From Micropruina sonneratiae (lineage in GTDB: Bacteria > Actinomycetota > Actinomycetes > Propionibacteriales > Propionibacteriaceae): DNA of 64,000 bases. The stretch lies in assembly GCF_025972045.1 (NCBI RefSeq), contig NZ_JAPDHX010000001.1, positions 1-64,000 on the forward strand, written 5' to 3'. The notes under the pieces were generated by a model that worked only from the letters and a program-made list of their open reading frames with translations, made no database searches and had not been told where the DNA came from. The position numbers and the translations under genes were made by a program. Positions 20,318-38,653 of the stretch are shown in pieces; position 1 is the first letter of the stretch; the number at the start of each line of letters is the position of its first letter.

Positions 20318-20332
20318 GCTCCGGCCGCTGAC

Positions 20333-20378
20333 GTTGATCCACATCGGGCACTGACTACGGTGCCCGATGTGGATCAAC
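20333..20378. repeat. intergenic palindrome, family copy 1
   Basis: 19-bp perfect stem: left arm 20333-20351 begins GTTGATCCACATCGGGCAC and right arm is 20360-20378, with an 8-base loop. It shares the core ATCGGGCAC/GTGCCCGAT with copies at 27.3, 37.6 and 38.6 kb. Sits after the SHOCT gene and before a promoterless-looking start, so it may also end transcription. Confidence 0.9.
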
Positions 20379-20441
20379 CATGGGGGGGTGCGCGGCGGGT
20401 GCCGCGTCCGGTCGCTCGGGGGTCGTGCTACGTTCCCCCGC

Positions 20442-21287
20442 ATGGCGACCGCCACACCCTCCGACGCAGCCGCTGCCGGTTCCGGACGCGCTGGCATCGC
20501 CGCGGTCGTGCTCAACAGCGTCGTCGCGCTGCTGCTGGGCGGCGCGATCGCCGTACTCCTGCACAACCTCGGCCAATGGGTGGCCGGGGCATTGCTGGGC
20601 GGCCGTTCGGAGTTGTTCGCGTTCGGCGTCCGGCATCTGCCGCCGCTGACCGGTAGGGATGCCGCCGTTGCGGCCCTCACCGGCCCGCTGCTGAGCCTGC
20701 TCGTCGGCATGGCGATGCAGATCCTGCAGCCGTTCCGCTACCGGGGCGACTTCGCCCATCTGCTGTGGATCTGGACGGCCTGCTCGTCGCTGATGCTGGC
20801 CACCGTCCAGTTGCTGCTGGCCCCGATCGGCGGCGACCTGGCGCGTGCGCTCACCGAGTTGGGAGCCCCCGGCTGGCTGGCCTGGGTGGCCGGCGTCTTC
20901 GGCGTGTTGGGAGTGTTCAGCGTCGCCCGCGAGTGGGCGATCCACTCCACCAGGTTGTGCGGACGCGGCCTGGCGCGGCTGCTCTGCTTCAGCCTGTACC
21001 CGTGGCTGGTCGCCGTCCCGGCGGGACTGCTGCTCGCCTGGGCCGAACTCACCGTGGCGCAGGTGAAGGCGTCCGACCTGGGCGCCGGCCCGGTCGATGA
21101 GGTCCTGGTGCTGTTCGCACTGCCCGCCTTCACCGCGTTCGCCCCGCTGTCGCTGCTGCTGCTCAACCGGGTGCTGGAACTCGAGGAGCCGCTGGAGGTC
21201 AGGCCGGTCCCGGTGGCCGGCCTGATCGGCCTGGCCGTCGTGGTCGGTGCCGGACTGGCGCTGGCGGGCGGCGTCGCGCTGGGCTGA
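20442..21287 (+). CDS. polytopic membrane protein with a degenerate M50-like motif
   Basis: 281 residues, start at ATG 20442. About six to eight membrane segments. The first holds VLLHNLGQWVAGALLGGRSE, which lines up with the HELGHxxxG zinc motif of M50 site-2 proteases, but both the Glu and second His are replaced (HNLGQ), so it should not be an active protease. Function unknown. Gap of 244 bp to ileS is filled by the T-box leader. Confidence 0.65.
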   Translation: MATATPSDAAAAGSGRAGIAAVVLNSVVALLLGGAIAVLLHNLGQWVAGALLGGRSELFAFGVRHLPPLTGRDAAVAALTGPLLSLLVGMAMQILQPFRYRGDFAHLLWIWTACSSLMLATVQLLLAPIGGDLARALTELGAPGWLAWVAGVFGVLGVFSVAREWAIHSTRLCGRGLARLLCFSLYPWLVAVPAGLLLAWAELTVAQVKASDLGAGPVDEVLVLFALPAFTAFAPLSLLLLNRVLELEEPLEVRPVPVAGLIGLAVVVGAGLALAGGVALG

Positions 21288-21317
21288 GTTCCACGCCCGC
21301 CGCGCCAGGCGCTACCA

Positions 21318-21528
21318 TGGTCGGTCGTCGCAGGGCATCGATGGGGCCATCACCCCGGAGCTGCCGGAAGAACGGCGTTCCGCACCGGAACGCTCACTAG
21401 AACCGGCCGCGGCGCAACACGAGCGGGTCGCCCCATGGGCGGCCAAGAAGGGTGGTACCGCGGGGTCCGCCTCGTCCCTTCGTCGTCGTGCCGGGCACCC
21501 GGCGCGAAGCAGCAGACGAAGGAACGCA
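21318..21528 (+). promoter_or_regulatory. T-box riboswitch (tRNA-Ile sensing) controlling ileS
   Basis: The T-box consensus AAGGGTGGTACCGCGG is exact at about 21448-21463. Upstream, the GCATCGATGGGGCCATCACC part looks like the short actinobacterial stem I with an AUC (Ile) specifier. Downstream, CGTCCCTTCGTCGTC can pair with GACGAAGGAAC, which contains the ileS ribosome-binding site, so uncharged tRNA-Ile would free translation rather than transcription. Specifier placement is by eye. Confidence 0.88.
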
Positions 21529-21531
21529 CCG

Positions 21532-24500
21532 ATGACGCAGTACCGCCCGGTTCCCCCGCAGGTCGACCTGCCCGCGCTGGAACACGAGATCCTCGACCTG
21601 TGGGACGCCCGCGATACGTTCGCCAAATCGCTGGCGGCCACCGAGGGCGGGCCGGCCTGGACCTTCTACGAAGGCCCGCCGACCGCGAACGGCACCCCCG
21701 GCACGCACCACATCGAGGCCCGCGTGTTCAAGGACGTCTTCCCGCGGTTCAAGACCATGCAGGGCTTCCACGTCGACCGCAAGGCCGGCTGGGACTGCCA
21801 CGGCCTGCCGGTCGAACTGGCCGTCGAAACCGAACTCGGCTTCAACGGCAAACCCGACATCGAGCAGTACGGCATCGAGGCGTTCAACGCCAAGTGCCGC
21901 GAGTCAGTCAGCCGGCACGTGCACGAGTTCAGCGAGCTCACCCGCCGGATGGGCTACTGGGTGAATCTCGACGAGGCGTACTGGACGATGGACCCCTCGT
22001 TCGTCGAGTCGGTGTGGTGGGCCCTGAAGCAGATCTTCGACCGCGGCCTGCTCGTCGAGGACTACCGGGTCGCCCCCTACTGCCCGCGCTGCGGCACCAC
22101 GCTGTCCGACCACGAACTCGCCCAGGGCTACGAGGACGTCGTCGACCCGAGCGTCTACGTCCGCTTCCCGCTGACGTCGGGCCCGTGGGCCGGCAAGGCG
22201 TCCCTGCTGGTGTGGACGACGACCCCCTGGACGCTGGTCTCCAACACGGCCGTCGCGGTGCACCCGGACGTCACCTACGTCGTCGCCAGCAAGGTGGACG
22301 CCCCCGAGCCCGAGACCCTGATCGTCGCCGAGCCGCTGGTCGAGAAGGTGCTCGGCGAGGGCTGGCAGATCGAGGCGAGGATCGGTGGCAAGGAACTCGA
22401 GCTGTGGACCTACCAGCGTCCGTTCGACCTGATCGACTTCCCGGACGTCGTGGGCGGCACCCACTACGTGGTGCTGGCCGACTACGTCACCACCGAGGAC
22501 GGCACCGGTCTGGTGCACCAGGCGCCCGCCTTCGGCGAGGAGGACATGGCCGTCTGCCGCGCCTACGGCCTGCCGATGGTCAACCCGATCCGCCCCGACG
22601 GCACCTTCGAGGAGTCCGTGCCGCTGGTCGGTGGGGTGTTCTTCAAGACCGCCGACAAGACGCTGGTGGCCGACCTCGTCGAACGCGGACTGATGTACCG
22701 GGTGCTCGACTACGAGCACAGCTACCCGCACTGCTGGCGTTGCCACACCGTCCTGCTCTACTACGCGCAGCCGTCGTGGTACATCCGCACCACCCAGATC
22801 AAGGACGCCCTGCTGCGTGAAAACGAGGGCACCAACTGGTACCCCGAGCACATCAAGTGGGGCCGGTACGGCGATTGGCTGAACAACAACATCGACTGGG
22901 CACTGTCCCGTTCCCGCTACTGGGGCACGCCGCTGCCGATCTGGCGCTGCGGCAATGACCACCTGACCTGCGTCGGGTCGCGGGCGGAGCTGTCGGAGCT
23001 GAGCGGATCGGACCAGTCGGCGCTCGATCCGCACCGGCCGTTCGTCGACGAGGTCACCTTCCCCTGCCCGCACTGCAAGGAGACCGCGCACCGCGTGCCC
23101 GAGGTGATCGACGCCTGGTTCGACTCGGGGTCGATGCCGTTCGCGCAGTGGGGCTACCCGTGGGCCGAAGGATCGAAGGAGGCGTTCGGCACCGCCTACC
23201 CAGCCGACTTCATCTGCGAGGCCATCGACCAGACCCGCGGCTGGTTCTACTCGCTGATGGCCGTCGGCACGCTGGTCTTCGACGCCTCGTCGTACCGCAA
23301 CGTGCTGTGTCTGGGGCACATCCTGGCCGAGGACGGCCGCAAGATGAGCAAGCATCTGGGCAACATCCTCGAACCGATCCCGCTGATGGACACCCACGGT
23401 GCGGACGCGGTGCGCTGGTTCATGGCCGCCGGCGGCTCGCCCTGGGCTGCCCGCCGGGTCGGCGACGTGACGATCACCGAGACGGTCCGCAAGGTGCTGC
23501 TGACGTACTGGAACTCGGTCGCCTTCCAGGCCCTGTACGCCCGCACCAACGGCTGGACGCCGGCCGCCTCGCCGGCCGGGGCGTCCGGTCATGTGCTCGA
23601 CCGGTGGCTGGTGTCACGGCGCACCGGACTGGTCCGCGAGGTCACCGCGGCGCTGGAGACGTTCGACACCCAGCGCTACGGCACGCTGATCGCCGACTTC
23701 GTCGACGACCTGTCCAACTGGTACGTCCGGCGTAGCCGGCGCCGGTTCTGGGAGGGCGACGCGGGCGCGCTGCAGACCCTGCACGACACCCTCGACGTGG
23801 TCACCCGGCTGATGGCCCCGCTGGCCCCGTTCATCACCGAGCGGGTCTGGCAGGACCTGGTCGTCGCCACGGACGCCGGCGCGCCCGAGTCGGTGCACCT
23901 GGCGTCGTGGCCGACGCCCGACGAGGCCCTGATCGACACCGGCCTCGACGAAGCGATGAAGCTGACCCGCCGCCTGGTCGAGCTGGGGCGGTCGGCCCGT
24001 GCCGAGGCCCGGGTGAAGACCCGGCAGCCGCTGTCGCGGGTGCTGGTGCCGTCCAGCTCGTTCGCGAAGCTGGACGCCGACCTGGTCGCCGAGATCGCCG
24101 CCGAGCTCAACGTGTTGGCGGTGGAGTCGTTCGCCTCGGCCGGTGACCTGGTCGACTACTCGGCGAAGGGCAACTTCCGGGCGCTGGGACGCCGGTTCGG
24201 CAAGGAGACCCCAAAGGTGGCCGCAGCCATCGCCGCCACCGACGCGGCCGCGTTGGCGGCCCAACTGGCGGCGTCCGGGACGGCGACCGTGGACGGGGTC
24301 GAGGTGAGCGCCGAGGAGGTGATCGTCTCGGAGCGTCCGCGCGAGGGCTGGTCGGTGGTGAACGAGCAGGGCGAGACCGTCGCGCTCGATCTCGAGCTGA
24401 CGCCCGAACTGGTCCGGGCCGGCCTGGCCCGCGAGGTCGTCCGGTTGGTGCAGGAGCGCCGCAAGGCGTCCGGGCTGGAGGTGTCGGACCGGATCACGCT

Positions 24501-24660
24501 GGCCTGGTCGGCACAGGGCGAGTTGGCCGAGGCGATCCGGGCTCAGGGCGACCTGATCGCCGCCGAGGTGCTGGCCACGTCGGTGACCGAGGGAACGCCG
24601 GACGCCGAGTGGGCCACGGATCAGGATCTGGGCCTGAGCTTCGCCATCGCCAGGGCCTGA
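21532..24660 (+). CDS. ileS: isoleucyl-tRNA synthetase
   Basis: 1042 residues from ATG 21532 with GAAGGAA upstream. Class I signature HIGH replaced by the IleRS form GTHH (NGTPGTHHIEARVFKD), GWDCHGLPVE, editing domain (TTPWTLVSNTAVAVHP), WFDSGSMPF, and KMSKHLGN. C-terminal anticodon-binding and tail domains are complete. It charges tRNA-Ile and edits Val-tRNA-Ile. Regulated by the T-box leader. Confidence 0.97.
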   Translation: MTQYRPVPPQVDLPALEHEILDLWDARDTFAKSLAATEGGPAWTFYEGPPTANGTPGTHHIEARVFKDVFPRFKTMQGFHVDRKAGWDCHGLPVELAVETELGFNGKPDIEQYGIEAFNAKCRESVSRHVHEFSELTRRMGYWVNLDEAYWTMDPSFVESVWWALKQIFDRGLLVEDYRVAPYCPRCGTTLSDHELAQGYEDVVDPSVYVRFPLTSGPWAGKASLLVWTTTPWTLVSNTAVAVHPDVTYVVASKVDAPEPETLIVAEPLVEKVLGEGWQIEARIGGKELELWTYQRPFDLIDFPDVVGGTHYVVLADYVTTEDGTGLVHQAPAFGEEDMAVCRAYGLPMVNPIRPDGTFEESVPLVGGVFFKTADKTLVADLVERGLMYRVLDYEHSYPHCWRCHTVLLYYAQPSWYIRTTQIKDALLRENEGTNWYPEHIKWGRYGDWLNNNIDWALSRSRYWGTPLPIWRCGNDHLTCVGSRAELSELSGSDQSALDPHRPFVDEVTFPCPHCKETAHRVPEVIDAWFDSGSMPFAQWGYPWAEGSKEAFGTAYPADFICEAIDQTRGWFYSLMAVGTLVFDASSYRNVLCLGHILAEDGRKMSKHLGNILEPIPLMDTHGADAVRWFMAAGGSPWAARRVGDVTITETVRKVLLTYWNSVAFQALYARTNGWTPAASPAGASGHVLDRWLVSRRTGLVREVTAALETFDTQRYGTLIADFVDDLSNWYVRRSRRRFWEGDAGALQTLHDTLDVVTRLMAPLAPFITERVWQDLVVATDAGAPESVHLASWPTPDEALIDTGLDEAMKLTRRLVELGRSARAEARVKTRQPLSRVLVPSSSFAKLDADLVAEIAAELNVLAVESFASAGDLVDYSAKGNFRALGRRFGKETPKVAAAIAATDAAALAAQLAASGTATVDGVEVSAEEVIVSERPREGWSVVNEQGETVALDLELTPELVRAGLAREVVRLVQERRKASGLEVSDRITLAWSAQGELAEAIRAQGDLIAAEVLATSVTEGTPDAEWATDQDLGLSFAIARA

Positions 24661-24664
24661 GCGG

Positions 24665-24982
24665 TCAGCGCCGACCGAGCCGGCGCTGCCTGAGGTTGTT
24701 CCTCAGCGCGCCGAGCACGGTGCTCAGCACGATCGCGACGAGCAGTACCGGCCAGAACGACAACTTGGTGAAGATGGCCAGCAGGATCGCCACCGGCCAG
24801 ACCAGCTTGGCCAGCGCCGAGAGCACCGCCTCGAACGACGACGGTGGCGGCACGGCCACGCCCCTGCCCGGCACCAGCACCGGTCCTCTCAGCGGACCGT
24901 GCTGCGTTTCCGGCTCGGGCTGGAACGGTGGCTGCTGCCAGCGCTGCTCCTCCGGATCGTCGGTGGGCGGGTTGGTGGTCAC
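24665..24982 (-). CDS. small membrane protein, function unknown
   Basis: 105 residues. A Pro/Gln-rich cytosolic N-terminus, then two adjacent hydrophobic segments (AKLVWPVAILLAIFTKL and WPVLLVAIVLSTVLGAL), then a basic tail (RNNLRQRRLGRR). No domain recognised. Convergent with ileS, 4 bp from its stop. Confidence 0.55.
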   Translation of the reverse strand: MTTNPPTDDPEEQRWQQPPFQPEPETQHGPLRGPVLVPGRGVAVPPPSSFEAVLSALAKLVWPVAILLAIFTKLSFWPVLLVAIVLSTVLGALRNNLRQRRLGRR

Positions 24983-25004
24983 CCGTCAATGCTAGGCGCC
25001 CACC

Positions 25005-27254
25005 TCAGCCGACCCTCAGCACGGCTCCCAGCTCGGCGGTCGAGTCGGTGCCGACATAGATCTCGATCTCGGTGGCGTCCTGCACCCAGTCGCGGGTGAC
25101 GGCGCTCCAGTACCGCAACTGGTCGGGGCCGAGATCGAAGCTGACCGTCCGGGTCCGGCCGGCGCCGATCGTCACCCGCTCGAACGCCTTCAGCTCGCGC
25201 AGCGGACGCGACGACGTGCCGTAGCGCTGGTGTATGTACAGCTGCACGACCTCGTCGCCGTCCACCTCCGAGTTGTTGCTGACGTCGACCGACACCTGCA
25301 CGGTGTCACCGACGGCCACCGACTCGGCCGACAGCCGCAGGTCGGCGTAGGAGAAGTCGGCGTAGGACAACCCGTGCCCGAACGGGTAGAGCGGGGTGGA
25401 CGCCTCGCCCCAGTACCGCCTGTCGGCCTCCTCGGGCTGGAAGGTGCGGTAGTGCGAGTGGATGACCGGCACCTGACCGACGTGCCGGGGCCAGCTGAAC
25501 GGCAACTTGCCGCCGGGGGAGACGTCGCCGAACAGCAGCGCCGCCGTCGCCTCGCCACCGCGCGTACCCGGGTACCACACCTGCAGGATCGCCGGCACGT
25601 GCTCGTCGGCCCAGCGCAGGTCGAGGGGGCGTCCGGACATCAGCAGCGCCACGGTCGGCGTCCCGGTGGCGACGATCGCCTGCAGCTGCTCGAGCTGGCG
25701 TCCCGGCAGGTCCAGGGTGTCGGTGGACGCCTTCTCGCCGATCTGGTTCTGGCGCTGGCCGAGCACTACCACGGCCACGTCGCTCTCCCGGGCCAGGGCC
25801 ACCGCGGCCTCGAGCTCCGCATCGTCGTCGTGGTCGGGCGCCGTGGCGTCCAGGGCCGACTCCATCGCGTCGAACATCGACCCGAACAGCCGTTCGGCGA
25901 TGCCCACGCCCGGGGTGTACTTCACCTTGCCGGACGCCGCCCGCGAGCGAATGCCGTCCAGGATGGTGACCGTCTCGGCGGCGTTGTAGTCGAACGACCA
26001 GGGCCCGAGGATGTCGCGCGGCGAGTCGGCCAGCTGACCGATCACCGCGATCGTCCGGGCCTCGGCGGTCAGCGGCAGCACACCGTCGTTCTTCAGCAGG
26101 ACCGCTGTCCGTTCCGCGGCCCGCCGGGCGACCTGCCGGTGGCCCGGGTCGTCCAGCACGGACGCGGTGGCCGCCTCGTCGGCGTAGGGGCGTTCGAACA
26201 GACCGAGCCGGAACTTCGCGGTCAGCACCCGGCGCACCGCCTCGTCGACGGTCGCCTCGCTGACCAGGCCCTGCTCGACGGCGGCGGGCAGGTGGGCGTA
26301 GGCGGGGTCCTCCATCGTCATCTCGAGGTCGAGCCCGGCGTTCATCGCGCGGGCGCCGGCGTCGGGCAGGTCGCGGGCTAAGTGCTGGGTGACCAGGGAG
26401 CGGACGGCGTTGGCGTCCGACACCACGAAGCCGTCGAAGCCGAACTCGCCGCGCAGCACGTCGGTGAGCAGCCAGCGGTTTCCCGAGGCGGGGACGCCGT
26501 TGAGGTCCATGTAGGCGCTCATGATGTTGGCCGCGCCCGCCTCGACCGCCGCGGCGAAGGGGGGCAGGTAGACGTTCCACAGCTCGGAATCGGAGATGTC
26601 CGCGTCCTCGTAGTCACGACCGCCGCGGGCGGCGCCGTAGCCCGCGAAGTGTTTCGGGCCGGCAAGCACCGACTCGGCGCCGAACTCGCCCTGCAACCCG
26701 CGGACGTGCGCGGCGGCGACGGCCGCGCCCAGGCACGGGTCCTCGCCGGCGCCCTCGACGATGCGCCCCCAGCGCGGGTCGCGGGCGATGTCGACCATCG
26801 GGGCGAAGGTCCAGTGGATGCCGACGGCGCGGGCCTCGCGGGCCGCGACCGCCTCACCCTCTTCGATCAGGGCCGGGTCCCACGAGGCGGCCTGCGCGAT
26901 CGGCACCGGCATGATCGTCCGCAGGCCGTGGATGACGTCGAAGCCGAACAGCAGCGGGATGCCCAGCCGGCTGCCCTCGATCGATAGCCGCTGCAGCCGG
27001 TTCGCGGTGGCGGCGTCCCGGACGAACAGCAGCGAGCCGGCGCCACCGGCGGCCACGGCACGTTCGACGGCGCGCGGCGATTCCAGGTACTGGTGCGCCT
27101 CGGCCGAGTCGGCCTCGACGTCCTGGCCGAAGCTGCCGAAGTAGAAGTACTGGGTGACCTGACCGGCCTTCTCCTCGAGGGTGAGCCGGCCGAGCAGGTC
27201 CTCGACCCGTTCGCCGACGCTGAGCGAGGGGTCACGGAAGGGCAGATCGGTCAC
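25005..27254 (-). CDS. bglX: GH3 beta-glucosidase (BglX type)
   Basis: 749 residues from GTG 27254, which has AGGAG at ideal spacing; no signal peptide, so intracellular. GH3 features: FGFDVIHGLRTIMPVPIAQAASWD, the conserved KHFAGYG, nucleophile region GFDGFVVSDANAV (Asp in SDAN), second alpha/beta domain, and a C-terminal FnIII-like domain. Hydrolyses beta-linked glucosides or other oligosaccharides taken up by the cell. A CBM6 protein lies in the same window but far away. Substrate is not certain, since GH3 is broad. Confidence 0.9.
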   Translation of the reverse strand: MTDLPFRDPSLSVGERVEDLLGRLTLEEKAGQVTQYFYFGSFGQDVEADSAEAHQYLESPRAVERAVAAGGAGSLLFVRDAATANRLQRLSIEGSRLGIPLLFGFDVIHGLRTIMPVPIAQAASWDPALIEEGEAVAAREARAVGIHWTFAPMVDIARDPRWGRIVEGAGEDPCLGAAVAAAHVRGLQGEFGAESVLAGPKHFAGYGAARGGRDYEDADISDSELWNVYLPPFAAAVEAGAANIMSAYMDLNGVPASGNRWLLTDVLRGEFGFDGFVVSDANAVRSLVTQHLARDLPDAGARAMNAGLDLEMTMEDPAYAHLPAAVEQGLVSEATVDEAVRRVLTAKFRLGLFERPYADEAATASVLDDPGHRQVARRAAERTAVLLKNDGVLPLTAEARTIAVIGQLADSPRDILGPWSFDYNAAETVTILDGIRSRAASGKVKYTPGVGIAERLFGSMFDAMESALDATAPDHDDDAELEAAVALARESDVAVVVLGQRQNQIGEKASTDTLDLPGRQLEQLQAIVATGTPTVALLMSGRPLDLRWADEHVPAILQVWYPGTRGGEATAALLFGDVSPGGKLPFSWPRHVGQVPVIHSHYRTFQPEEADRRYWGEASTPLYPFGHGLSYADFSYADLRLSAESVAVGDTVQVSVDVSNNSEVDGDEVVQLYIHQRYGTSSRPLRELKAFERVTIGAGRTRTVSFDLGPDQLRYWSAVTRDWVQDATEIEIYVGTDSTAELGAVLRVG

Positions 27255-27311
27255 GGAGTTCTCCTTCGAAGCGGGACGTCGGGGGACAGCCTGCCACGAC
27301 CGGGCGACGTC

Positions 27312-27351
27312 GGGTCGGATCGGGCACCGTAGTCGGTGCCCGATCCGGCCC
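27312..27351. repeat. intergenic palindrome, family copy 2
   Basis: Core arms GGATCGGGCACCG (27317-27329) and CGGTGCCCGATCC (27334-27346) with a TAGT loop; the stem extends to 27312/27351 with one G-T wobble. It sits upstream of bglX and directly next to the truncated 5' edge of a rhamnulokinase remnant. Confidence 0.88.
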
Positions 27352-27357
27352 AACCTT

Positions 27358-27552
27358 TGCTGCTCAGCGCAGGGCGCGGACGCCGCCGGGCTGCCGGTCG
27401 TCGCGGGACCGGTGGAGGCGACCGCGTTGGGCAATGTGCTCGTGCAGGCCCGCAGCCACGGCGCCGTCGGCTCACTGGACGAGATCCGGCAGATCATCGC
27501 CCGATCGTTTGATCCGATCACTTACGGTCCGCGATCAAATCGGCGAGACTGA
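27358..27552 (+). pseudogene. C-terminal fragment of a rhamnulokinase (FGGY kinase)
   Basis: About 60 residues, GADAAGLPVVAGPVEATALG, then NVLVQARSHGAVGSLDEIRQ, match the end of RhaB-type rhamnulokinases, where PVEATALGNV is characteristic. The rest of the gene is absent; the break lies beside the palindrome at 27312-27351. A leftover from a deletion. Confidence 0.8.
27508..27539. promoter_or_regulatory. TTTGATC/GATCAAA inverted repeat upstream of lutABC
   Basis: TTTGATC (27508-27514) and GATCAAA (27533-27539) form an exact 7-bp inverted repeat with 18 bases between, about 75 bp before lutA. AT-rich against the surroundings. Could be an operator for a lactate-responsive GntR or other regulator; none is encoded nearby. 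Confidence 0.4.
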
Positions 27553-27611
27553 ACGAGAGCCTGCGTCACCCCAACGGTGGCGTGGGGCCAGTCACCCGTC
27601 AGAGGAGGACG

Positions 27612-28406
27612 ATGAGCGCCCCAACCGGCACAGTGGCCCTGTTCGCCACGTGCATCAACGACCTGATGTTCCCCGACACCCCCAAGGCCGTCGTCCGGCT
27701 GCTGGAGCGCCTGGGCTGCACCGTCGACTTCCCGCTGTCGCAGACGTGCTGCGGCCAGCCGTTCACCAACACCGGCTACTTCAAAGAGGCGATGCCGTCG
27801 GTGCGCAACTACGTCGAGACCTTCGAGTCGTACGAGTACGTGGTCGGGCCGTCCGGCTCGTGCATCGGCTCGGTCCGCGACCAGCACCCGATGCTGGCCG
27901 GACGGCTCGGTGACCCCGGGCTGCAACGACGGGTCGAGGCGATCGTGGCCAAGACCTACGACCTGTCCGAGTTCATCGTCGACGTGCTCGGCGTCACCGA
28001 CGTCGGCGCCTATTTCCCGCACACCGTCACCTACCACTCCACCTGCCATTCGCTGCGGGTCACCAAGGTGGGCGACCGGCCCTACCGGCTGCTGAAGGCG
28101 GTGCGCGGCCTCACCTTCGTCGAGCTGCCCGACTCCGACCAGTGCTGCGGCTTCGGCGGCACCTTCTCGGTGAAGAACCCCGACACGTCGGTGGCGATGG
28201 GCACCGACAAGGTGCGGCACGTGCTCGACACGGGCGCGGAATACCTGGTGGCCGGCGACAACTCCTGCCTGCTGCACCTGGGCGGCCTGCTCAGCCGGAT
28301 GGAGGCCGGCGTCCGGCCCATCCATCTGGCCGAGATCCTGGCGCGCACCGAGGAGGACCTGGTCGAGGCCGGGACGTCCGCGAACAGTGAGGGAGGCGTC
28401 CGATGA
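27612..28406 (+). CDS. lutA: lactate utilization protein LutA (Fe-S/CCG domain)
   Basis: 264 residues from ATG 27612 (GAGGAGG upstream). Two CCG domains: SQTCCGQPF and DQCCGFGGTF, plus STCHS, that ligate Fe-S clusters. LutA works with LutB and LutC to oxidise L-lactate to pyruvate on the inner side of the membrane. First gene of lutABC; stop overlaps the lutB start. Confidence 0.93.
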   Translation: MSAPTGTVALFATCINDLMFPDTPKAVVRLLERLGCTVDFPLSQTCCGQPFTNTGYFKEAMPSVRNYVETFESYEYVVGPSGSCIGSVRDQHPMLAGRLGDPGLQRRVEAIVAKTYDLSEFIVDVLGVTDVGAYFPHTVTYHSTCHSLRVTKVGDRPYRLLKAVRGLTFVELPDSDQCCGFGGTFSVKNPDTSVAMGTDKVRHVLDTGAEYLVAGDNSCLLHLGGLLSRMEAGVRPIHLAEILARTEEDLVEAGTSANSEGGVR

Positions 28407-30686: not shown

Positions 30687-31886
30687 GTGCGACTGCTGAA
30701 ACGACTCTGTCCATCGCTGGCGCTGATGCTGGTGCTCACCCTCGTTCCCTTCGTGGCCGGCAGCCGGCCGGCCGCGGCGGCGGCCCCCACACTCGGGCCC
30801 GTCTTCAACGACACCGACCGATGGGCGATCAGCAAGAACATCACCCGGATGGTGAAGGCGACCCCGCGGGGGGCGACGATCCGGATCGCCCAGTACCGCA
30901 TCGCCAGCTCGGATCCCCACCTGCTGCCGGCGCTGCGCAAGGCGGTGAAGCGCGGTGTGAACGTGCGGATCGTGCTCGACAAGTCCGATCGCAACAGGCA
31001 CCCGATGCGAGACGAGGGGCTGGCGAAGCTGGCCGCGCTGATCAAGAAGAAGTACGGAGCCTGGGGCAACCGCACGAAGCCGTCGTTCATCGTCCTGTGC
31101 ACCAACGGCTGCATCGGCACCGCCTACAGCCACAACAAGTTCTACCTCTTCAGCAGGATGGGTTCGAAGACGAAGGTCGTGGTGCAGTCCACCGCGAACG
31201 TCGCGAAGGACAACGCCACCGAGGCCTGGAACGCCTCCTTAGCGGTGGCGGGCCGGACGAAGCTCTACGGCGGCTACGTCGGCTACTTCAGCGACCTGGC
31301 CGCCCGCCGCACCAACGAGTCCTACTACCGCACGGTCACCGACGGCCCCTACAAGGCGTACTTCTTCCCGCGGAAGTCCTCCACCGGTGACAGCGACGAT
31401 CCGAAGACCGACACCATCTACCGCATCCTCGACGAACAGGTGCGGTGCACCGGCAACACCAAGGTCGGCACCAGCGTCAACCACCGCACGATCATCCGGA
31501 TCGCGGTATGGGGCTTCACCCGCGAGGAAGTGGCCCGCAAGCTGCGGTCGCTCGCCGATCGGGACTGCTGGATCGATGTCGCGATCAACAAGCCCGGCGA
31601 GGTCTCGGCGGAGGTGCTGCGACTGCTGGCCAACCACCCGCGCATCAACGTCGACGACGCCCGCTCCGGCGGACGTTGGATGCACGCCAAGTACCTGCTG
31701 GTGGAAGGCAACTATGCGGGCAGGCCCGACAGCAAGCTCGCCTTCGTCGGCTCGCACAACTTCACCCTGAATGCGCTAAGGCACAACGACGAGACCTGGC
31801 TGAAGATCGACCGGGCCTCGGTGCATGACGCGTTCCGGGCCAACTTCCGGCGGATCATGAAGGCCAGCCCGAACTACCCGTTCTGA
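30687..31886 (+). CDS. secreted phospholipase D-like protein
   Basis: 399 residues from GTG 30687 (AAGGAGGAA upstream). Signal peptide with hydrophobic core LALMLVLTLVPFVAG and A-rich cleavage region. Two PLD-type half sites: YSHNKFYLF (about residue 148) and MHAKYLLVE (about 332), each H-x-K, with distal Asn/Glu parts (STANVAKDN, SHNFTLNA). The strict HKD Asp is not obvious in either. Likely a phosphodiesterase acting on phospholipids, nucleic acids or wall teichoic polymers outside the cell. It sits upstream of a wall-glycopolymer cluster. Confidence 0.8.
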   Translation: MRLLKRLCPSLALMLVLTLVPFVAGSRPAAAAAPTLGPVFNDTDRWAISKNITRMVKATPRGATIRIAQYRIASSDPHLLPALRKAVKRGVNVRIVLDKSDRNRHPMRDEGLAKLAALIKKKYGAWGNRTKPSFIVLCTNGCIGTAYSHNKFYLFSRMGSKTKVVVQSTANVAKDNATEAWNASLAVAGRTKLYGGYVGYFSDLAARRTNESYYRTVTDGPYKAYFFPRKSSTGDSDDPKTDTIYRILDEQVRCTGNTKVGTSVNHRTIIRIAVWGFTREEVARKLRSLADRDCWIDVAINKPGEVSAEVLRLLANHPRINVDDARSGGRWMHAKYLLVEGNYAGRPDSKLAFVGSHNFTLNALRHNDETWLKIDRASVHDAFRANFRRIMKASPNYPF

Positions 31887-31895
31887 CCGGCCTGC

Positions 31896-32870
31896 TCAGG
31901 CCACCCGGCCGAGCGAATCCGGATTGCGCCGCAACCGGGTGAGCAGGGTGCGGCGGCGCGGGGAACCGCCCGCCAGCACCTGGTCGAGAACGTCGGAGGG
32001 CATCGACTCCAGGGCCTCCACGCTGCGTTCGATCAGCCTGTGCTGCAGCGACGGGCTGAGCCGGGCCCGCTTGTTGACGTGGTAGTTGATCAGGGCGCAG
32101 AAGGCGTCCACCGCCTTGGGGATGAGTGCACCCGCCTCGGGGTCGGCGCTGGTCTCGCGCAGCACCATCGCCATGGCGTCCAGGAAATGCAGGTGGCGGG
32201 GGTCGTTGAGCTCGCTGAGTGAGCCCGGGACGCCCTGGCGGTGGAACAGGCCCAGCAGACCGACCGTCGCGAACGACTCCGAACCACGGTGCAGCCTCCA
32301 GATCCAGTGCCGGTCGGCGCAGGTGCGCAGATTCTCGGCGAAGGTGAGCAGACCCCGCTCGGCAAGCCGACGATGGTAGGCCCCGGCCCACGCCGCCGGG
32401 TAGTCCACCGACGTCGACCGGTAGGGCGGGTTGATCGCACCGCGCGGGGGCAGCACCAGGTTGCGCCGGGTCTCAGGCGAGCGGACGACGGTGCGGCGGC
32501 GTCCGGTCACCCGGACGTGGTCGGTGCGGACGAACTCGCACCCCAGCCGTTCGATCATCCGCACCAGCTGCTCGAGATAGCCGTGGCCGAGCCAGTCGTC
32601 GGCGTCCAGCCAGGTGAGGTAGGTGCCGTCGGCGTGCACCAGGCCGGTGTTGCGGGCCGCACTCAACCCCAGGTTGGTGTCGTGCCGGACGACCCTGGCG
32701 CCGGGCACGTCCCCGGCGAGTTGGTCGAGCACCGCCGGGGTGTGGTCGGTGGAACAGTCCTCGACGAAGATGAACTCGAAGTCGTGGCGGAGGTTGCCCT
32801 GCAGGCTGCGGACCAGCGTCGGTAGCTGGCCGGCCACGTTGTAGCAGGGGATGATCACCGACAACTTCAC
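31896..32870 (-). CDS. family 2 glycosyltransferase
   Basis: 324 residues from GTG 32870 (GAGGAG upstream). GT-A fold: LSVIIPCYNVAGQLPTLVRSLQ, FEFIFVEDCSTDHTPAVLDQL and LTWLDADDWLGHGYLE with the metal-binding DxD. The C-terminal part is a helical domain. Transfers a sugar from a nucleotide donor, likely for the wall glycopolymer made by the divergent cluster to its right. Confidence 0.88.
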   Translation of the reverse strand: MKLSVIIPCYNVAGQLPTLVRSLQGNLRHDFEFIFVEDCSTDHTPAVLDQLAGDVPGARVVRHDTNLGLSAARNTGLVHADGTYLTWLDADDWLGHGYLEQLVRMIERLGCEFVRTDHVRVTGRRRTVVRSPETRRNLVLPPRGAINPPYRSTSVDYPAAWAGAYHRRLAERGLLTFAENLRTCADRHWIWRLHRGSESFATVGLLGLFHRQGVPGSLSELNDPRHLHFLDAMAMVLRETSADPEAGALIPKAVDAFCALINYHVNKRARLSPSLQHRLIERSVEALESMPSDVLDQVLAGGSPRRRTLLTRLRRNPDSLGRVA

Positions 32871-33108
32871 GACCCAGGACTCCTCGCGTGGACGACTTCG
32901 TCCCCCGTTGCGTGACCGATCCGCCCCCACGATCCGACCACGCGTCGATGCTTGCCGGGCTCGGTGACGAACAGAACACAGCCGTGTGACGACTCGATGA
33001 ACTCCGTAATCGCCGGGGGTTCGAAGACCTCGCGACGTCCGTCGGGAGTTCACGTGGGCGACGCTTCGACGTGGCGGACTCGTCGATCGCGGCTCCTAGC
33101 GTCAAGGC

Positions 33109-34419
33109 ATGACCGCTGGACGTCGAGAAGCCGCGCCCGCCCCCCGGGTGCTGGTCCTGGCCGACACCGACAGCCGCTGGAAGTGGGGCTATCTCACCGC
33201 CCAGCAGCTGTTCCCGGCGGCATCCCCGGTCGGCCTCCTTCTGGCTTCCGGTCGCGAGCCGTCCCCCCGGCAGCTCGCCGACACCGGTGTGCCAGCGCGG
33301 CCAACGGTCGTCGAGACCGTTCCCGACTTCGTCGAGACCGACGAGCTGGAGGAGGCCGACGCCATCGTCCTGGCACTGCCGGGCGGCGCGGTTCAGGCGG
33401 TGCTGCACGGCATGGCCCGGCGCTGGCCGGCGCCCGGGCGGCGTCCGCTGGTGATCACCGGCTATGTCGGGGTGGTCTATGAGAAGCAGGCCGAGGGACT
33501 GCTGATGCGTGCCGGCTCGGACGTCATCCTGGCCAACTCGCCCGCCGACGCCGACACCTTCCGTGACCTGTTGGCCGGGGCGGGAGCCGACGCCTCGGTG
33601 GTACTGCCCACGGTGCTGCCGTTCCTCGGCCCGCCCGATTCGGTGCGTCCCCACGAGCATCGGTTCACTGTCACCTTCGCCGCTCAGCCGGGCGTCCCGG
33701 GCACCCGGGCCGAACGTGAACTGGTGGTGCGCCGGCTGGTCCGGCACGCCGCGCTGCATCCCGACCGGGAGGTGCTGCTGAAGGTGCGCGGCCGGATCGG
33801 CGAACAGACCACCCACCCGGAGGACCATCCCTACCAGGTGCTCGGCGCCCGGCTCGACGTGCCGCGGCCGGACAACCTTCAGGTTGTCCACGGCAACATG
33901 GGCGAGGTCCTCGACCGCACCGACCTGCTGGTCACCGTGTCGTCGACGGCGGCGGTCGAGGCGATGCACCGGGGCATCCCGACCGCGATCCTGACCGACT
34001 TCGGCATCAAGGAGAAGCTCGGCAACCACTACTTCATCGGATCCGGCTGCCTGGCCGCCTTCAACGAACTGGACGCCGGGGCCCTGCCCACAGCCGACCC
34101 GGGCTGGGCCGCCTCGCACGGGCTCGGTTCCTCCGACGTGGCCGAGCAGGCCCGGCAGCGGGCGGCCCAGTTGCTGGCGCACGGCGTCCGCCCGCCGCTG
34201 CGGCCCTTCTACACGATGGACAACGCGGCCGGGATGCTGCCCGGGCTACTCGGGCGGTACCAGCTGACCGGACACGGGCACGCCCTGGAGGCCGACGACG
34301 ATCGGCTGCTCGACCTGCAGTCGGCGGTGCGGTCGCTGGTCGGCCGGGCCGCCCGCACCGCCTACCGGCAGGGTGTCGAGACGGTCGCGCCGGCACTGCG
34401 TCGATTGGCCAGGCTGTGA
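33109..34419 (+). CDS. DUF6716-like putative glycosyltransferase
   Basis: 436 residues. VLVLADTDSRWKWGYLTAQQL at the N-terminus and DLLVTVSSTAAVEAMHRGIPTAILTDFG in the second half look like a GT-B type transferase, and the pattern agrees with proteins named DUF6716 in actinobacterial nonulosonic-acid clusters. First gene of a run with neuA, neuB and a sialyltransferase-like gene; its stop overlaps the neuA start. Specific role unknown. Confidence 0.65.
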   Translation: MTAGRREAAPAPRVLVLADTDSRWKWGYLTAQQLFPAASPVGLLLASGREPSPRQLADTGVPARPTVVETVPDFVETDELEEADAIVLALPGGAVQAVLHGMARRWPAPGRRPLVITGYVGVVYEKQAEGLLMRAGSDVILANSPADADTFRDLLAGAGADASVVLPTVLPFLGPPDSVRPHEHRFTVTFAAQPGVPGTRAERELVVRRLVRHAALHPDREVLLKVRGRIGEQTTHPEDHPYQVLGARLDVPRPDNLQVVHGNMGEVLDRTDLLVTVSSTAAVEAMHRGIPTAILTDFGIKEKLGNHYFIGSGCLAAFNELDAGALPTADPGWAASHGLGSSDVAEQARQRAAQLLAHGVRPPLRPFYTMDNAAGMLPGLLGRYQLTGHGHALEADDDRLLDLQSAVRSLVGRAARTAYRQGVETVAPALRRLARL

Positions 34420-35582
34420 CGGTCCTGGCGGTGATCCCGGCCCGCGGCGGCTCCAAGGGGGTGCCGGGCAAGAACCTGGTATCGATCGGCGGGGTGCCGC
34501 TGGTGGTGCGCGCGATTCGGGCCGCGCAGGCGTCCGGAATGGTGGACGTCGTCGCCGTCTCGACCGACGACGACCGGATCGCCGCCGTGGCCGGGCGCGC
34601 CGGCGCACTGGTCATCGGGCGCCCCGCCGCCCTGGCCGGCGACGAGGCGTCCAGCGAGGCGGCGTTGCTGCACGCGCTCGACGAGGTCGAGGATTCGGGC
34701 CTCGCCGTCGAGGTGCTGCTGATGGTGCAGTGCACGTCGCCATTCGTGACCGCCGCCGAAATCGCCGACTGTGTGGCGGCCGTCAGGGGAGGCGCCGACA
34801 CGGCGTTCACCGCCGCACCGAGCCACGGCTTCCTGTGGCGCCGCTGCCCCGACGGCTCGGCGACGGGGGTCAACCACGACCAGGCCACCCGGCCGCGTCG
34901 CCAGGACCGCCGGCCGGAGTTCCTCGAGACCGGCGCGGTGTACGCCATGACGGCGTCCGGCTTCGAGCGGCATCGGCACCGCTTCTTCGGTCGCACCGTG
35001 CTGATCGAGGCCGACCCGGCCAGGGTGCTGGAGATCGACGAACCGGCCGACCTGGACCGCGCCCGCCTCCTGGCCCCGCTGCTCGACGGCCCCAGCCAAG
35101 TGCCCGGCCGGGCGGACATCGACGCAGTCGTGCTCGACTTCGACGGGACCCAGACCGACGACTCGGCGCAGGTCGCCTCCGACGGCAGCGAACAGGTGAG
35201 GGTGCATCGCGGCGACGGGCTCGGCATCGCCGCGCTGCGCCGGGCGGGCATCCCGGTGCTGATCCTGTCCAGCGAGGCCAACCCGGTCGTCCGGGCCCGT
35301 GCCCGCAAGCTCAACGTGCCGGTGCTGCACGGCGTCGCCGACAAGGGCAGCGTGCTGCGCGACTGGTGCAGCAGCGAGGCCGTGGACCCCGGCCGGGTGC
35401 TGTACGCCGGCAACGACGTCAACGACCTCGGCTGCTTCGCGCTGGTCGGCTGGCCGGTCGCGGTCGCCTCCGCCCACCCGGTCGTGCGGGACGCCGCCCG
35501 GCTCGTCACCTCCGTGCCGGGAGGGCACGGGGCCGTTCGCGAAATCGCCACCTGGATCCTCGGAAAGGAACTCATACCATGA
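34416..35582 (+). CDS. neuA: acylneuraminate/Kdn cytidylyltransferase fused to a HAD phosphatase
   Basis: 388 residues from GTG. Residues ~1-220 are a CMP-sialate synthetase: VIPARGGSKGVPGKNL, VQCTSPFVTAAEI, FLETGAVYAM and EIDEPADLDRA. Residues ~235-388 are a KdsC-like HAD phosphatase: VVLDFDGTQTDD, GIPVLILSSEAN, YAGNDVNDLGCF. In a phosphorylated route the HAD part would remove the 9-phosphate of Neu5Ac-9-P or Kdn-9-P before activation with CTP. Overlaps both neighbours by 4 bp, so tightly coupled. Confidence 0.88.
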   Translation: MTVLAVIPARGGSKGVPGKNLVSIGGVPLVVRAIRAAQASGMVDVVAVSTDDDRIAAVAGRAGALVIGRPAALAGDEASSEAALLHALDEVEDSGLAVEVLLMVQCTSPFVTAAEIADCVAAVRGGADTAFTAAPSHGFLWRRCPDGSATGVNHDQATRPRRQDRRPEFLETGAVYAMTASGFERHRHRFFGRTVLIEADPARVLEIDEPADLDRARLLAPLLDGPSQVPGRADIDAVVLDFDGTQTDDSAQVASDGSEQVRVHRGDGLGIAALRRAGIPVLILSSEANPVVRARARKLNVPVLHGVADKGSVLRDWCSSEAVDPGRVLYAGNDVNDLGCFALVGWPVAVASAHPVVRDAARLVTSVPGGHGAVREIATWILGKELIP

Positions 35583-36502
35583 TCCCCATCGCCGGCCGCG
35601 ACCGAACCATCGGTGACCGCACCCTCGGGCACGGCCACCCCGTCTACATCACCGCCGAGATCGGCCTGAACCACAACGGCGAGGTCAGCACCGCGCTGGC
35701 CCTGATCGACGTCGCGCTCGAGGCCGGCGTCGACGCGGTCAAGTTCCAGAAGCGGACGCCGCGGATCTGCACCCCGCGCCAGCAGTGGGACGTCGAACGG
35801 GAGACCCCGTGGGGCCGGATGGCCTACATCGACTACCGCGAACGGATCGAGTTCGGCGAGGCCGAGTACAGGATCATCGACGAATACTGTCAGGACAAGG
35901 GGATTCACTGGTTCGCCTCGCCGTGGGACGTGCCCAGTGTCGAGTTCCTCGACGGGTTCGGCGTGCCGGCCCACAAGATCGCGTCGGCCTGCCTGACCGA
36001 CGACGACCTGCTGCGGGCGGTGCGGGCGTCCGGGCGGACGGTGATCCTCTCCACCGGCATGTCGACGCCGGCGCAGATCCGGCACGCGGTGGAGGTGCTG
36101 GGCAGCAGCAACGTGCTGCTGTGCCATGCCACCTCGACCTACCCGGCCGCGAACGACGAACTGAACCTGCGGATGATCGGCACGCTCATGGGGGAGTATC
36201 CCAATGTGCCGGTCGGCTACTCCGGGCACGAGCGCGGCCTGCAGACCACCGTGGCGGCCGCAGCCCTGGGCGCCTGTTTCGTGGAGCGGCACATCACCCT
36301 GGACCGCACGATGTGGGGTTCGGACCAGGCCGCGTCGCTGGAGCCGGCCGGGCTGACCCGGCTGGTCCGTGACATCCGGGTCATCTCGGAGGCGCTCGGC
36401 GACGGGGTGAAGCGGGTCTACGAGGGTGAGTACACGGCGATGCGCAAGCTGCGCCGGGTGCCGGGCGTGGTGGCCGAGGCGTCCGCGCAGCAGGTCGCCT
36501 GA
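35579..36502 (+). CDS. neuB: N-acetylneuraminate/Kdn synthase NeuB
   Basis: 307 residues, ATG 35579 overlapping the neuA stop. TIM-barrel synthase: YITAEIGLNHNGEVSTALALI, DAVKFQKRTP, FASPWDVPSVEFLD, KIASACLTDD, ILSTGMSTPAQI, CHATSTYPA and GYSGHERGL. It condenses PEP with a hexose (phosphate or ManNAc). The C-terminal antifreeze-like SAF domain of ordinary NeuB (~345 residues) is missing. Together with the HAD domain next door this suggests a Kdn-type route. Confidence 0.92.
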   Translation: MIPIAGRDRTIGDRTLGHGHPVYITAEIGLNHNGEVSTALALIDVALEAGVDAVKFQKRTPRICTPRQQWDVERETPWGRMAYIDYRERIEFGEAEYRIIDEYCQDKGIHWFASPWDVPSVEFLDGFGVPAHKIASACLTDDDLLRAVRASGRTVILSTGMSTPAQIRHAVEVLGSSNVLLCHATSTYPAANDELNLRMIGTLMGEYPNVPVGYSGHERGLQTTVAAAALGACFVERHITLDRTMWGSDQAASLEPAGLTRLVRDIRVISEALGDGVKRVYEGEYTAMRKLRRVPGVVAEASAQQVA

Positions 36503-36510
36503 GCCGGCTG

Positions 36511-37557
36511 ATGGCCAAGAAGCGCGCGCACAAGCGGACCACGCTGGCGCTGGTGGAGAGTCCTGCGCAGCTGCTGAACGTCATCGAGTGGGCGTACCGG
36601 GCCAAGGCGTTGAAGCAGACCCGGTTGGCGGTGCTGCCGCCCCGCGAGGCCACCACCCGGGTGCAACTGGAGGCGATGGTCGAACTGGCCAGGGACGCCG
36701 GCCTGGCCGCCACCTGGTACGAGCCGCGCCGATCGGCGGCGTCGATGGTGGCGGTGGCCTGGGAGCTGTTCCCGAGGTTGGCCCGGGCGGAACGGCTGGT
36801 CGTCGGCGACCCGTTCTCGCGGTTCGTGCAGGCGGTGCTGCCGCTCGCCGACGTGGCCCAGGTGGTGGTGGTGGACGACGGCACCGCCACCATCTCGTTC
36901 ATCGACCAGCTCAGCAGCGGTGGCCGGCTGGCCCGCTGGCACGTCAACGCCGGCCGCGACGGCCGCGACCGGGTGGTCGATCTGCTCTCCGACCTGGCCA
37001 GGGACTTCTTCACGCCCTCGCAGCGGGACGGCCGCAGCGTCGAGGTGTTCACCGCCATGCCGGTGCGGGCACCGCAGGGGATCGGCCAGAGCGTGAACGA
37101 CTTCGCCTGGACCCGGGCCACGTTCGGCCCGCCGGCGGTGACCGACTCCGTCGACGTGATCGGCACCTCGCTGGTCGAGACGGGAGTGGTGGACGCCGGC
37201 CGCTACCTGGCCGGGGTGCTGGCCGTGACGAACGAGTTCGGGGCCGGCCGATACTTCGCCCACCGTCGCGAGGCCGAGGGCAAGCTGGCCGCCCTCGCCG
37301 CGTCGACCGGACTGACGGTGGTCCGGCCCGCCGTGCCGCTGGAGATCGCGGTGCGCCGAGGACCGGTGAGCCGGCTGATGGTCAGCTACCCCTCGACCGT
37401 CGCCCACACACTGCCGCTGGTGCTCGCCGACGTCGCGGTCGATGTGGCGGTGGCCGACGTTCCGGCCGCCTGGCTGCTGACCGGGGCACCCGCCGGCGCC
37501 GGTGACTTCCTGGCGACGGTGACCGCCACCGCCCGCTCGCGGCACGGCCTGGTCTGA
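36511..37557 (+). CDS. sialyltransferase-like glycosyltransferase
   Basis: 348 residues. Begins with KRTTLALVESPAQLLNVIEWAY, resembling the VESPxQL start of bacterial sialyl-/polysialyltransferases (GT52 and relatives). A RYFAHRREAEGKLA motif resembles the HPRE sequence of that group and SYPSTVAHTLPLVL the HS-S motif that binds the CMP part. Likely transfers the nonulosonic acid to a growing wall glycan. Family placement by eye only; last gene of the cluster. Confidence 0.55.
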   Translation: MAKKRAHKRTTLALVESPAQLLNVIEWAYRAKALKQTRLAVLPPREATTRVQLEAMVELARDAGLAATWYEPRRSAASMVAVAWELFPRLARAERLVVGDPFSRFVQAVLPLADVAQVVVVDDGTATISFIDQLSSGGRLARWHVNAGRDGRDRVVDLLSDLARDFFTPSQRDGRSVEVFTAMPVRAPQGIGQSVNDFAWTRATFGPPAVTDSVDVIGTSLVETGVVDAGRYLAGVLAVTNEFGAGRYFAHRREAEGKLAALAASTGLTVVRPAVPLEIAVRRGPVSRLMVSYPSTVAHTLPLVLADVAVDVAVADVPAAWLLTGAPAGAGDFLATVTATARSRHGLV

Positions 37558-37575
37558 CGCTCGGTGGCGAGTCTG

Positions 37576-37611
37576 TCCAGATCGGGCACCGAACTCGGTG
37601 CCCGATGTGGA
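37576..37611. repeat. intergenic palindrome, family copy 3
   Basis: Perfect core arms ATCGGGCACCGA (37581-37592) and TCGGTGCCCGAT (37595-37606) with a 2-base gap; outer part TCC-A and T-GGA extends it with a mismatch. It fills the space between two convergent stop codons, so it could work as a two-way terminator. Confidence 0.9.
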
Positions 37612-38544
37612 TCAACCCTCGACGGGCACCAGCAGGCACCGGGGGCAGGGCTGGATCGGGCCTTCCCAGCCGCGCGTCATCAGCACCCCGCCGACCATTC
37701 GGGCCGTCTCACAGGCGCCGCCGGTCACCTGCTGCCAGCCCAGCCGCAGCGTCGTTATGCCCTGAAGGGCGTGGGCGTTGTCGCGGATCATGTCGGTGAA
37801 GGCCGCGCCGCCTGAATGGTGCAGCTTGCTGTCGAGCTCGATCAGCAGGCTGTACTCCTCGTAGAGGGCGTCACTGCGGTAGCTGCGCAGCACGTGTCGC
37901 TGGCGGATCGCTGTCGGCAGACGGTGCGCACGCTCGACATCGACCAGGAAGCGCCGCTCCAGGGCCGAGTGCGCGCCATCCGTGACGTCGCACAGGATCT
38001 CCCTCAGCAGGCCCCGATGACGTAACGCCGGCCGGTCGGACAGCTGGGCCAGGAGCCGCTTGGCGGTGGTTCGGCGACCGGAGATGGCGTCGGCCAGGAT
38101 GGCGGCGATGCGGTCGGCGTCGGCTTCGGCGCACAGGTCGAGCACGGTCTGGTCGACACCGGTGCGTGGCGGTTCACCGGTCGCTCGCCGGGTAGCTTTG
38201 ATGAATCGCCAGCCCGGCCGGAAACGGCGCCCTACCGGTGCGAACACGGTGACCTCGTCGGGCGGGGCCTTCTGCAGGCCGTGAAGATGCGCCGCCGACT
38301 CCAGCCCGAGCACAGCACCCTGGCCGCCCAGCAGAACACCGGCCCAGGCCCGGCTTCGCCACCCGTCGGCGGCTCCAAGGGTGTACACCCCTGGTGTCAT
38401 GGGATGCACTATCCCGTCGTGCAACAGCCGGGCCACGACGCGTCGGTGCAGGCCGGCTTCGAGTAGCTGGGAGCGGCTGATCACGCCGGACTGGGCCAGG
38501 GCGAGCGTGCGTAGGGTGTCCGGAATCACTGTTCGAGGCTTCAC
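37612..38544 (-). CDS. AbiEi-type (type IV antitoxin-like) domain protein with nuclease-like C-terminus
   Basis: 310 residues. N-terminal winged helix: LRTLALAQSGVISRSQLLEAGL, VVARLLHDGIVHPMTPGVYTL, and AVLGLESAAHLHGL, the layout of AbiEi antitoxin domains. The C-terminal part (YEEYSLLIELDSKLHH...DNAHALQGITTLRLGWQQVT) resembles Vsr/DUF559-like nuclease folds. Such stand-alone proteins are common in actinobacteria and no AbiEii toxin gene is adjacent. Role unknown. Confidence 0.7.
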   Translation of the reverse strand: MKPRTVIPDTLRTLALAQSGVISRSQLLEAGLHRRVVARLLHDGIVHPMTPGVYTLGAADGWRSRAWAGVLLGGQGAVLGLESAAHLHGLQKAPPDEVTVFAPVGRRFRPGWRFIKATRRATGEPPRTGVDQTVLDLCAEADADRIAAILADAISGRRTTAKRLLAQLSDRPALRHRGLLREILCDVTDGAHSALERRFLVDVERAHRLPTAIRQRHVLRSYRSDALYEEYSLLIELDSKLHHSGGAAFTDMIRDNAHALQGITTLRLGWQQVTGGACETARMVGGVLMTRGWEGPIQPCPRCLLVPVEG

Positions 38545-38610
38545 ACCTGTTCAGTGTGTGCACCACGAGCCGAAAGTGGTCAAAAGTCCTCGCGAGCCGG
38601 CGGAGGTCGG

Positions 38611-38646
38611 TCCAGATCGGGCCCCGAACTCGGTGCCCGATCTGGA
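38611..38646. repeat. intergenic palindrome, family copy 4
   Basis: Arms 38611-38627 and 38630-38646 share TCCAGATCGGG and CCCGATCTGGA with one internal C-T mismatch. It follows the stop of the Gfo/Idh gene (minus strand), only 1.0 kb from copy 3. Confidence 0.88.
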
Positions 38647-38653
38647 TCAACCC

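Follow-up and report, generated by a model that had tools for sequence, protein, structure and literature searches.

The first 64,000 nucleotides of contig NZ_JAPDHX010000001.1 from Micropruina sonneratiae (which we call the window) contain four copies of a long palindrome, two of which bracket a gene for a predicted AbiEi-nuclease fusion protein. The gene and the palindrome belong together: homologs of the gene are bracketed by matching repeats across the family, and the repeat is private to each protein. We think it fairly probable that they form a two-part system that resembles the repetitive extragenic palindromic (REP) sequences and the REP-associated tyrosine transposases (RAYTs) and is built on an unrelated enzyme, whose AbiEi half would recognise the palindrome and whose nuclease would mobilise it. 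Below, G000 is the genome of the window, and other G and L labels are the other genomes and the gene loci that we compared.

The core of the palindrome is ATCGGGCACCG-N4-CGGTGCCCGAT, which is nested in a hairpin with a stem of about 22 bp and a loop of N4. All four copies named in the original prediction, which was made from the letters of the window, are present, and their hairpins are very stable (-36 to -43 kcal/mol). A search of the 64-kb window with the 12-mer half alone, allowing 2 mismatches, gives weak evidence (38 matches versus 23.3 expected; 0 of 100 shuffles reach this). The prediction had proposed a genome-wide search for the core, and this gives strong evidence: the full 26-nt palindrome with up to 3 mismatches has 18 sites in the 3.52-Mb genome, 9 of them perfect. 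The reversed pattern has no sites, so we rejected a chance origin. A covariance model identified 17 strong copies in G000 (E < 1e-8 on both strands), along with 2 weaker copies (best E of 2.4e-4 and 6.5e-4) and 1 partial match (E = 0.08). Because the model scored 150 of 6467 first-look candidates in G000, weak copies may be missed.

We aligned 35 copies, which come from five Micropruina genomes: 91% of the 22-pair helix is paired, and 13 of its pairs have changed on both sides, a level that 0 of 500 shuffles reach. Only the outer 11 pairs of the stem are free of search bias, because the core itself was the search pattern; these are the most variable part, yet 88% of their cells pair (summed over rows), with many changes on both sides. 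Among 84,980 species genomes, the exact core is found in three contigs, all from Micropruina (the window's own genome may be absent from this collection). An Rfam scan of the window found no family that matches the palindromes; its only hits are the two RNAs listed after the table.

Matches to the gene (E ≤ 1e-8) are present in 70 of the 116 genomes that we searched, including G000 itself. From well over 100 matches listed, we examined 70 gene loci from 46 genomes: 30 initially and 40 more afterwards, chosen mostly by score with some passed over, so they are not strictly the top 70. For each gene, we compared the 200 bp upstream to the 200 bp around the stop codon and took the local score of the repeat that they share. 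With a threshold of 18, we found a matching pair of flanks for 57 of 70 genes. None of the 56 control genes has one, and across loci 3 of 830 pairs match (the upstream region of one locus with the downstream region of another). The corresponding counts are 57, 1, and 4 at a threshold of 16, or 59, 1, and 15 at a threshold of 14. The control genes were taken from the loci under study, so their windows can overlap a bracket. The 57 bracketed genes represent every one of the four families sampled (40/51, 3/4, 7/7, and 7/8 for f1 to f4) and 22 of the 23 genera. For this tally, the genus labels were typed by hand from the list of gene matches.

Most of the brackets include a hairpin: at a score of 11 or above, at least one flank has a hairpin in 46 of the 57 brackets and both flanks do in 39. 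In the clear hairpins, the stem has a median length of 22 bp. Between the end of the upstream copy and the start codon (estimated for the homologs by aligning them to the window's protein) there are a median of 65 nt; the copy on the downstream side starts right at the stop codon (median -1 nt). Hairpin strength alone is a weaker criterion than sequence shared between the two sides. Hairpins with a score of at least 12 on both sides are found for 30 of 70 genes versus 2 of 50 controls, but if just the downstream hairpin is needed, then 23 of 50 controls have one. At five loci (L189, L198, L200, L202, and L210), the genes are bracketed by shared repeats with scores of 33.5-68.5, and several of these are not simple hairpins. 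The repeats at these five loci are possibly another architecture of the same system.

The palindromes differ between proteins even within a genome. Apart from the window's own, 69 loci yielded 63 usable proteins; after dropping L204, 62 of these and the window's protein make up our alignment (A2). We compared the 19 same-genome pairs in which both genes are bracketed and in this alignment. The flanks are unrelated in all 19 pairs (scores of 15 or below), while the proteins are 43-67% identical. The pair L191 and L201, with a score of 15.0, has a short stretch in common. Between genomes of the same genus, flanks can be common to similar proteins, although orthologous DNA nearby may contribute to the high scores there (52-140). 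G002 has no copies of the window's family, and a different palindrome brackets its own gene. The tips vary less than the stems: of the 33 hairpin tips with an even length, 7 are ACTA and 5 are AACT (on either strand).

Two unrelated palindromes that bracket other homologs are dispersed as well. The palindrome from genus g18 has 6 copies in G022 and 4 in G085 (two of each form the bracket) and none in G068. The palindrome from genus g31 has 9 copies in G038, 9 in G044, 5 in G041, and 2 in G053, with none in G050 or G056; in G038, G044, and G041, all but one or two copies lie beyond the bracket. Neither palindrome has any copies in the tested genomes of other genera, and the reversed controls have none either. 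At the loci that we fetched, solo copies of these two palindromes are mostly beside the 3' end of a gene.

Within G000, a stop codon is no more than 40 nt away from 12 of the 17 strong copies. Of the other five, 2 have divergent genes on either side, 2 are inside intact genes, and 1 overlaps the predicted start of a gene. Four of the 17 are between two 3' ends. (We classified the neighbours with a home-made gene caller based on codon usage.) The palindromes had been predicted to lie only between genes, which holds in the window but not across the genome. Both of the genic copies are in frame, and in the same frame, reading EV[DE]P[HD]RAPT[ST]VPD[VL]; one is in a homolog of glycoside phosphorylases (P0001) and the other is in an esterase (P0002). 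The esterase insert is absent from all 10 of the homologs that we found in 32 other genomes, each of which is 9 residues shorter there. The phosphorylase insert is absent from both of the other genomes with a homolog, although the region aligns loosely and one of the homologs is distant. Because these homologs lack the inserts, palindromes have arrived in protein-coding genes. The esterase's net gain of 27 bp is smaller than the element of about 45 bp, which means that part of the target was replaced or has since diverged. Conservation of position is limited: 4 of 20 entries for G000 lie next to a gene that also adjoins an element in another genome of the genus, and two of these four are the bracketing copies. 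This is not proof of mobility, because most of the relatives are represented by incomplete assemblies.

The protein in the window is predicted to be a fusion of an AbiEi-like half with a nuclease domain similar to Vsr and the EDxHD nucleases. It matches AbiEi_4 in Pfam and AbiEi in PADLOC (E = 3.9e-14). AlphaFold, given our alignment of 63 sequences, returned a model with a mean pLDDT (predicted local distance difference test) of 94.1. Foldseek matched the model to AbiEi (6y8q, E = 1.7e-5) and weakly to the homing endonuclease I-Bth0305I (E = 0.02). A second structural aligner placed residues 3-188 on AbiEi (6y8q, Z = 9.2 over 176 residues) and residues 191-293 on 3hrl (Z = 12.1), I-Bth0305I (Z = 12.0), and Vsr (Z = 10.4). 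E196, H207, D225, E236, D238, D251, and D255 are invariant in all 63 proteins, as are three cysteines. The catalytic residues are presumably among the invariant acidic residues and the histidine. The cysteines (C278, C300, and C303) are at the end of the nuclease domain, which suggests a metal site.

We also looked for other partners and origins. A search for a RAYT-type transposase gene had been proposed, but no protein in G000 matches the Y1 (HUH) transposase family PF01797, while the same search was positive in 5 of 14 control genomes. We therefore rejected a RAYT or IS200-type enzyme as the partner. We rejected a phage or plasmid origin as well. The window's protein has no match in the plasmid collection (E ≤ 1e-5), the exact core has no match in the viral contigs, and a search of the viral contigs for the nuclease pattern gave 56 pattern matches, none of which were confirmed. 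The phage collection has one two-piece match to the protein, in L247 (MT835975.1), which is an unannotated "Bacteriophage sp." from human faeces, and there are no hairpins with a score of 11 or above at this homolog.

The history of the locus can be traced within the genus. In G000, G004, and G005 alike, a bracketed gene lies between the same neighbours. The proteins at this locus in G004 and G005 are 66% and 57% identical to the window's, while the two neighbours are about 77% and 85% identical, and the palindrome at the locus in G005 has diverged. In G003, the locus has neither the gene nor a hairpin with a score of 12 or above; it carries ATCCGGATCGATTC, which by eye looks like half of a palindrome from G003's own family. 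In G001, the locus (L242:1439-1499) has a different hairpin, with a 25-bp stem, beside an extra copy of one arm. Bracketed homologs are also found at other places, in G001 (60% identical) and, as a second one, in G005. From this comparison, we conclude that the unit has long been at the window locus, that G003 has probably lost it, and that other loci carry it too.

In the mechanism that we favour, the source unit would be the AbiEi-nuclease gene with a palindrome on each side, and the dispersed palindromes would be non-autonomous copies. The known target of AbiEi, at its own promoter, is a pair of 23-bp inverted repeats separated by 3 bp (as described in the excerpts available from PMC7319586). 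This target matches the two arms of about 22 nt here, which are 4 nt apart. The AbiEi half would most likely bind the palindrome as a dimer, with one subunit on each arm, which would place the nuclease over the dyad (the N4 tip). A cut at the dyad, followed by repair or copying, could then spread or move the palindrome to new sites, as has been proposed for RAYTs and REPs. New copies would persist where they are least harmful, which would be mostly just past stop codons and occasionally in frame within genes.

Several observations weigh against this explanation. There is no matching pair of flanks for 13 of the 70 genes, and 11 of the 57 bracketed loci have no clear hairpin, even though the repeat is shared. 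Flank similarity correlates with protein identity across 50 loci (Mantel r = 0.50; 0 of 2000 permutations), but part of this correlation is shared ancestry. Copy numbers are low: 17 strong and 2 weaker copies in G000, and 2-9 copies in the six genomes that contain one of the other two palindromes. G003 (89% complete) has many palindromes but no match to the gene; G053 has 2 copies but is not among the genomes listed with a gene match; and G005 has two genes with other brackets, yet it has about seven, mostly weak, copies of the window's type. Because three species carry a bracketed gene at the same locus, the bracket may be inherited in place instead of jumping, and we saw no target duplication or intermediate. 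As for the nuclease domain, the match of the window's protein to DUF559 is below Pfam's cutoff, 15 of the 63 homologs match DUF559 with E ≤ 0.001, and Foldseek alone gives E ≤ 0.001 for AbiEi only, versus 0.02 for the nuclease.

Alternatively, the nuclease gene might home into existing palindromes, which would be its target and would be duplicated in the process; solo palindromes would then be empty targets, or scars that remain once recombination between the two copies has removed the gene, like solo long terminal repeats. The predicted fold is like that of the EDxHD homing nucleases, 42 of the 57 brackets align best as direct repeats, and a truncated rhamnulokinase ends at the copy at 27312. 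The apparent half palindrome in G003, which lacks the window's unit, and the bracketed homologs at other places in G001 and G005 would also fit. But we found no fragments of the gene near the solo copies in the Micropruina loci that we had fetched by then (tblastn, E ≤ 0.001), and homing alone does not explain the palindromes inside two open reading frames. We consider this scenario rather unlikely.

We have much less faith in a static regulon, in which the AbiEi half would regulate its own gene, with the flanking palindromes as operators and the scattered ones as further regulatory sites, and nothing would move. The position of the upstream copy, a median of 65 nt before the estimated start, is suitable for an operator, and AbiEi-type antitoxins do bind paired 23-bp inverted repeats at their own promoters (going by the excerpts from PMC7319586). 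However, the second copy is at the stop codon, 12 of 17 copies are behind stops with four between two 3' ends, and the two copies inside open reading frames are absent from homologs. Least credible of all is that these are bidirectional terminators that share their sequence by duplication or gene conversion: the stability of the hairpins and the 12 copies near stop codons would fit, but none of the 17 strong copies in G000 has a T-tail (5 T in the 8 nt after either stem), no terminator-like site was found at 37000-39000 in the window, the palindrome is private to each partner protein, and copies occur inside genes and between divergent genes. The lack of T-tails led us to reject classical intrinsic terminators, and the repeated strong terminators of the original prediction are possible only as a side effect.

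Returning to the proposed two-part system, its components in the window are listed in the table. As had been predicted, three of the copies (20333, 37576, and 38611) are behind stop codons and the fourth is at a deletion edge. The remnant beside the fourth copy, on the forward strand, is the C-terminus of a rhamnulokinase (PDB 2cgj, E = 3e-7; the match to FGGY_C is below threshold), and the apparent deletion ends at the palindrome (27312-27351).

Table. Copies of the palindrome and the AbiEi-nuclease gene in the window
Feature	Position	Strand	Details
Solo palindrome copy	20329..20382	no strand	54-nt model match; perfect 19-nt arms GTTGATCCACATCGGGCAC; 14 nt past stop of gene 19850-20317 (+)
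Solo palindrome copy	27305..27358	no strand	Between divergent genes; adjoins rhamnulokinase C-terminal remnant 27352-27549
Palindrome copy	37567..37620	no strand	At 3' end of AbiEi-nuclease gene; 12 nt past stop of convergent gene 36511-37557
Predicted AbiEi-like + Vsr/I-Bth0305I-like (EDxHD, DUF559-related) fusion gene	37612..38544	-	310 aa; residues 3-188 + 191-293
Palindrome copy	38602..38655	no strand	About 60 nt before start of AbiEi-nuclease gene; directly past stop of Gfo/Idh gene 38654-39604 (-)

The AbiEi-nuclease gene lies between a Gfo/Idh oxidoreductase and a gene that has no match in Pfam (36511-37557; E ≤ 0.01). The genes next to the latter resemble what we take to be a sialic-acid-type pathway. 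Elsewhere in the window, Rfam identified a thiamine pyrophosphate (TPP) riboswitch aptamer (43500-43606) and a bacterial small signal recognition particle (SRP) RNA (16431-16525).

More broadly, we lean towards viewing this as a class of bacterial repeat systems, in which a fusion nuclease of the AbiEi/Vsr-like type, instead of an HUH enzyme, would mobilise a palindrome private to it. Such a class would have arrived at the REP/RAYT principle independently and would be widespread in the Propionibacteriales, with repeated joint re-targeting of protein and palindrome. We found no earlier report of the association in the open-access literature that we searched, and there could be work elsewhere. 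If we are correct, then a second, unrelated class of enzymes works with palindromes, and the REP/RAYT principle evolved twice. This would also provide a candidate enzyme for orphan palindromes and suggest a function for "orphan" genes of the AbiEi/DUF559 type. And there would be dozens of natural pairs of protein and palindrome, with several in one genome (we examined four in G022), for studying how long DNA specificity evolves.

To our knowledge, all of the REP families with an assigned enzyme rely on HUH transposases. As described in the excerpts available from PMC2817692 and PMC3733652, REP/RAYT systems have dispersed palindromes that are mostly behind genes, with some copies in genes, and a bracketed partner gene, with its own palindrome for each protein; the RAYT gene diverges faster than its neighbours (PMC2817692). 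The system in the window shares all of these features, including the faster divergence of the partner. However, its predicted enzyme is the AbiEi and Vsr/EDxHD-like fusion and not a Y1 HUH transposase, its arms are longer and nearly perfect (about 22 bp), and genomes have 2-19 copies, not over 100 as is usual for REPs (excerpts from PMC2817692). In the alignment of 35 copies, the foot of the palindrome carries neither a GTAG nor a CGTC head, and GTAG is found only within some tips. The CGTC REPs apparently lack a dedicated transposase (at least in the parts of PMC3733652 available). So the system would work like REP/RAYT yet is not a member: it lacks the enzyme, it has few copies, and its palindrome has no GTAG/CGTC foot. 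The proposed resemblance to REP-type elements thus stands for the dispersal, the position behind genes, and the bracketed candidate partner, but the partner is not a RAYT and there are about 17-19 copies, not hundreds.

The other relatives are more partial. Like the AbiEi of type IV toxin-antitoxin systems, the first half of the protein has the predicted AbiEi fold, and the known AbiEi target is also a pair of inverted repeats of about 23 bp (in the excerpts from PMC7319586). Unlike those systems, the AbiEi half is fused to a nuclease, no recognised AbiEii toxin gene adjoins it, and palindromes are on both sides as well as dispersed. The second half has the predicted fold of Vsr and the EDxHD homing endonucleases, of which I-Bth0305I forms a dimer on a target almost 60 bp long (excerpts from PMC3943268). 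In contrast to the homing endonucleases, we saw no intron or intein, and the gene is bracketed by its presumed target. Finally, the two strong copies in frame within genes of G000 are reminiscent of other elements. The Rickettsia palindromic elements are palindromes that are inserted in frame in protein-coding genes. Our palindromes differ from these in being from another host, in being mostly intergenic, and in having a candidate partner gene.

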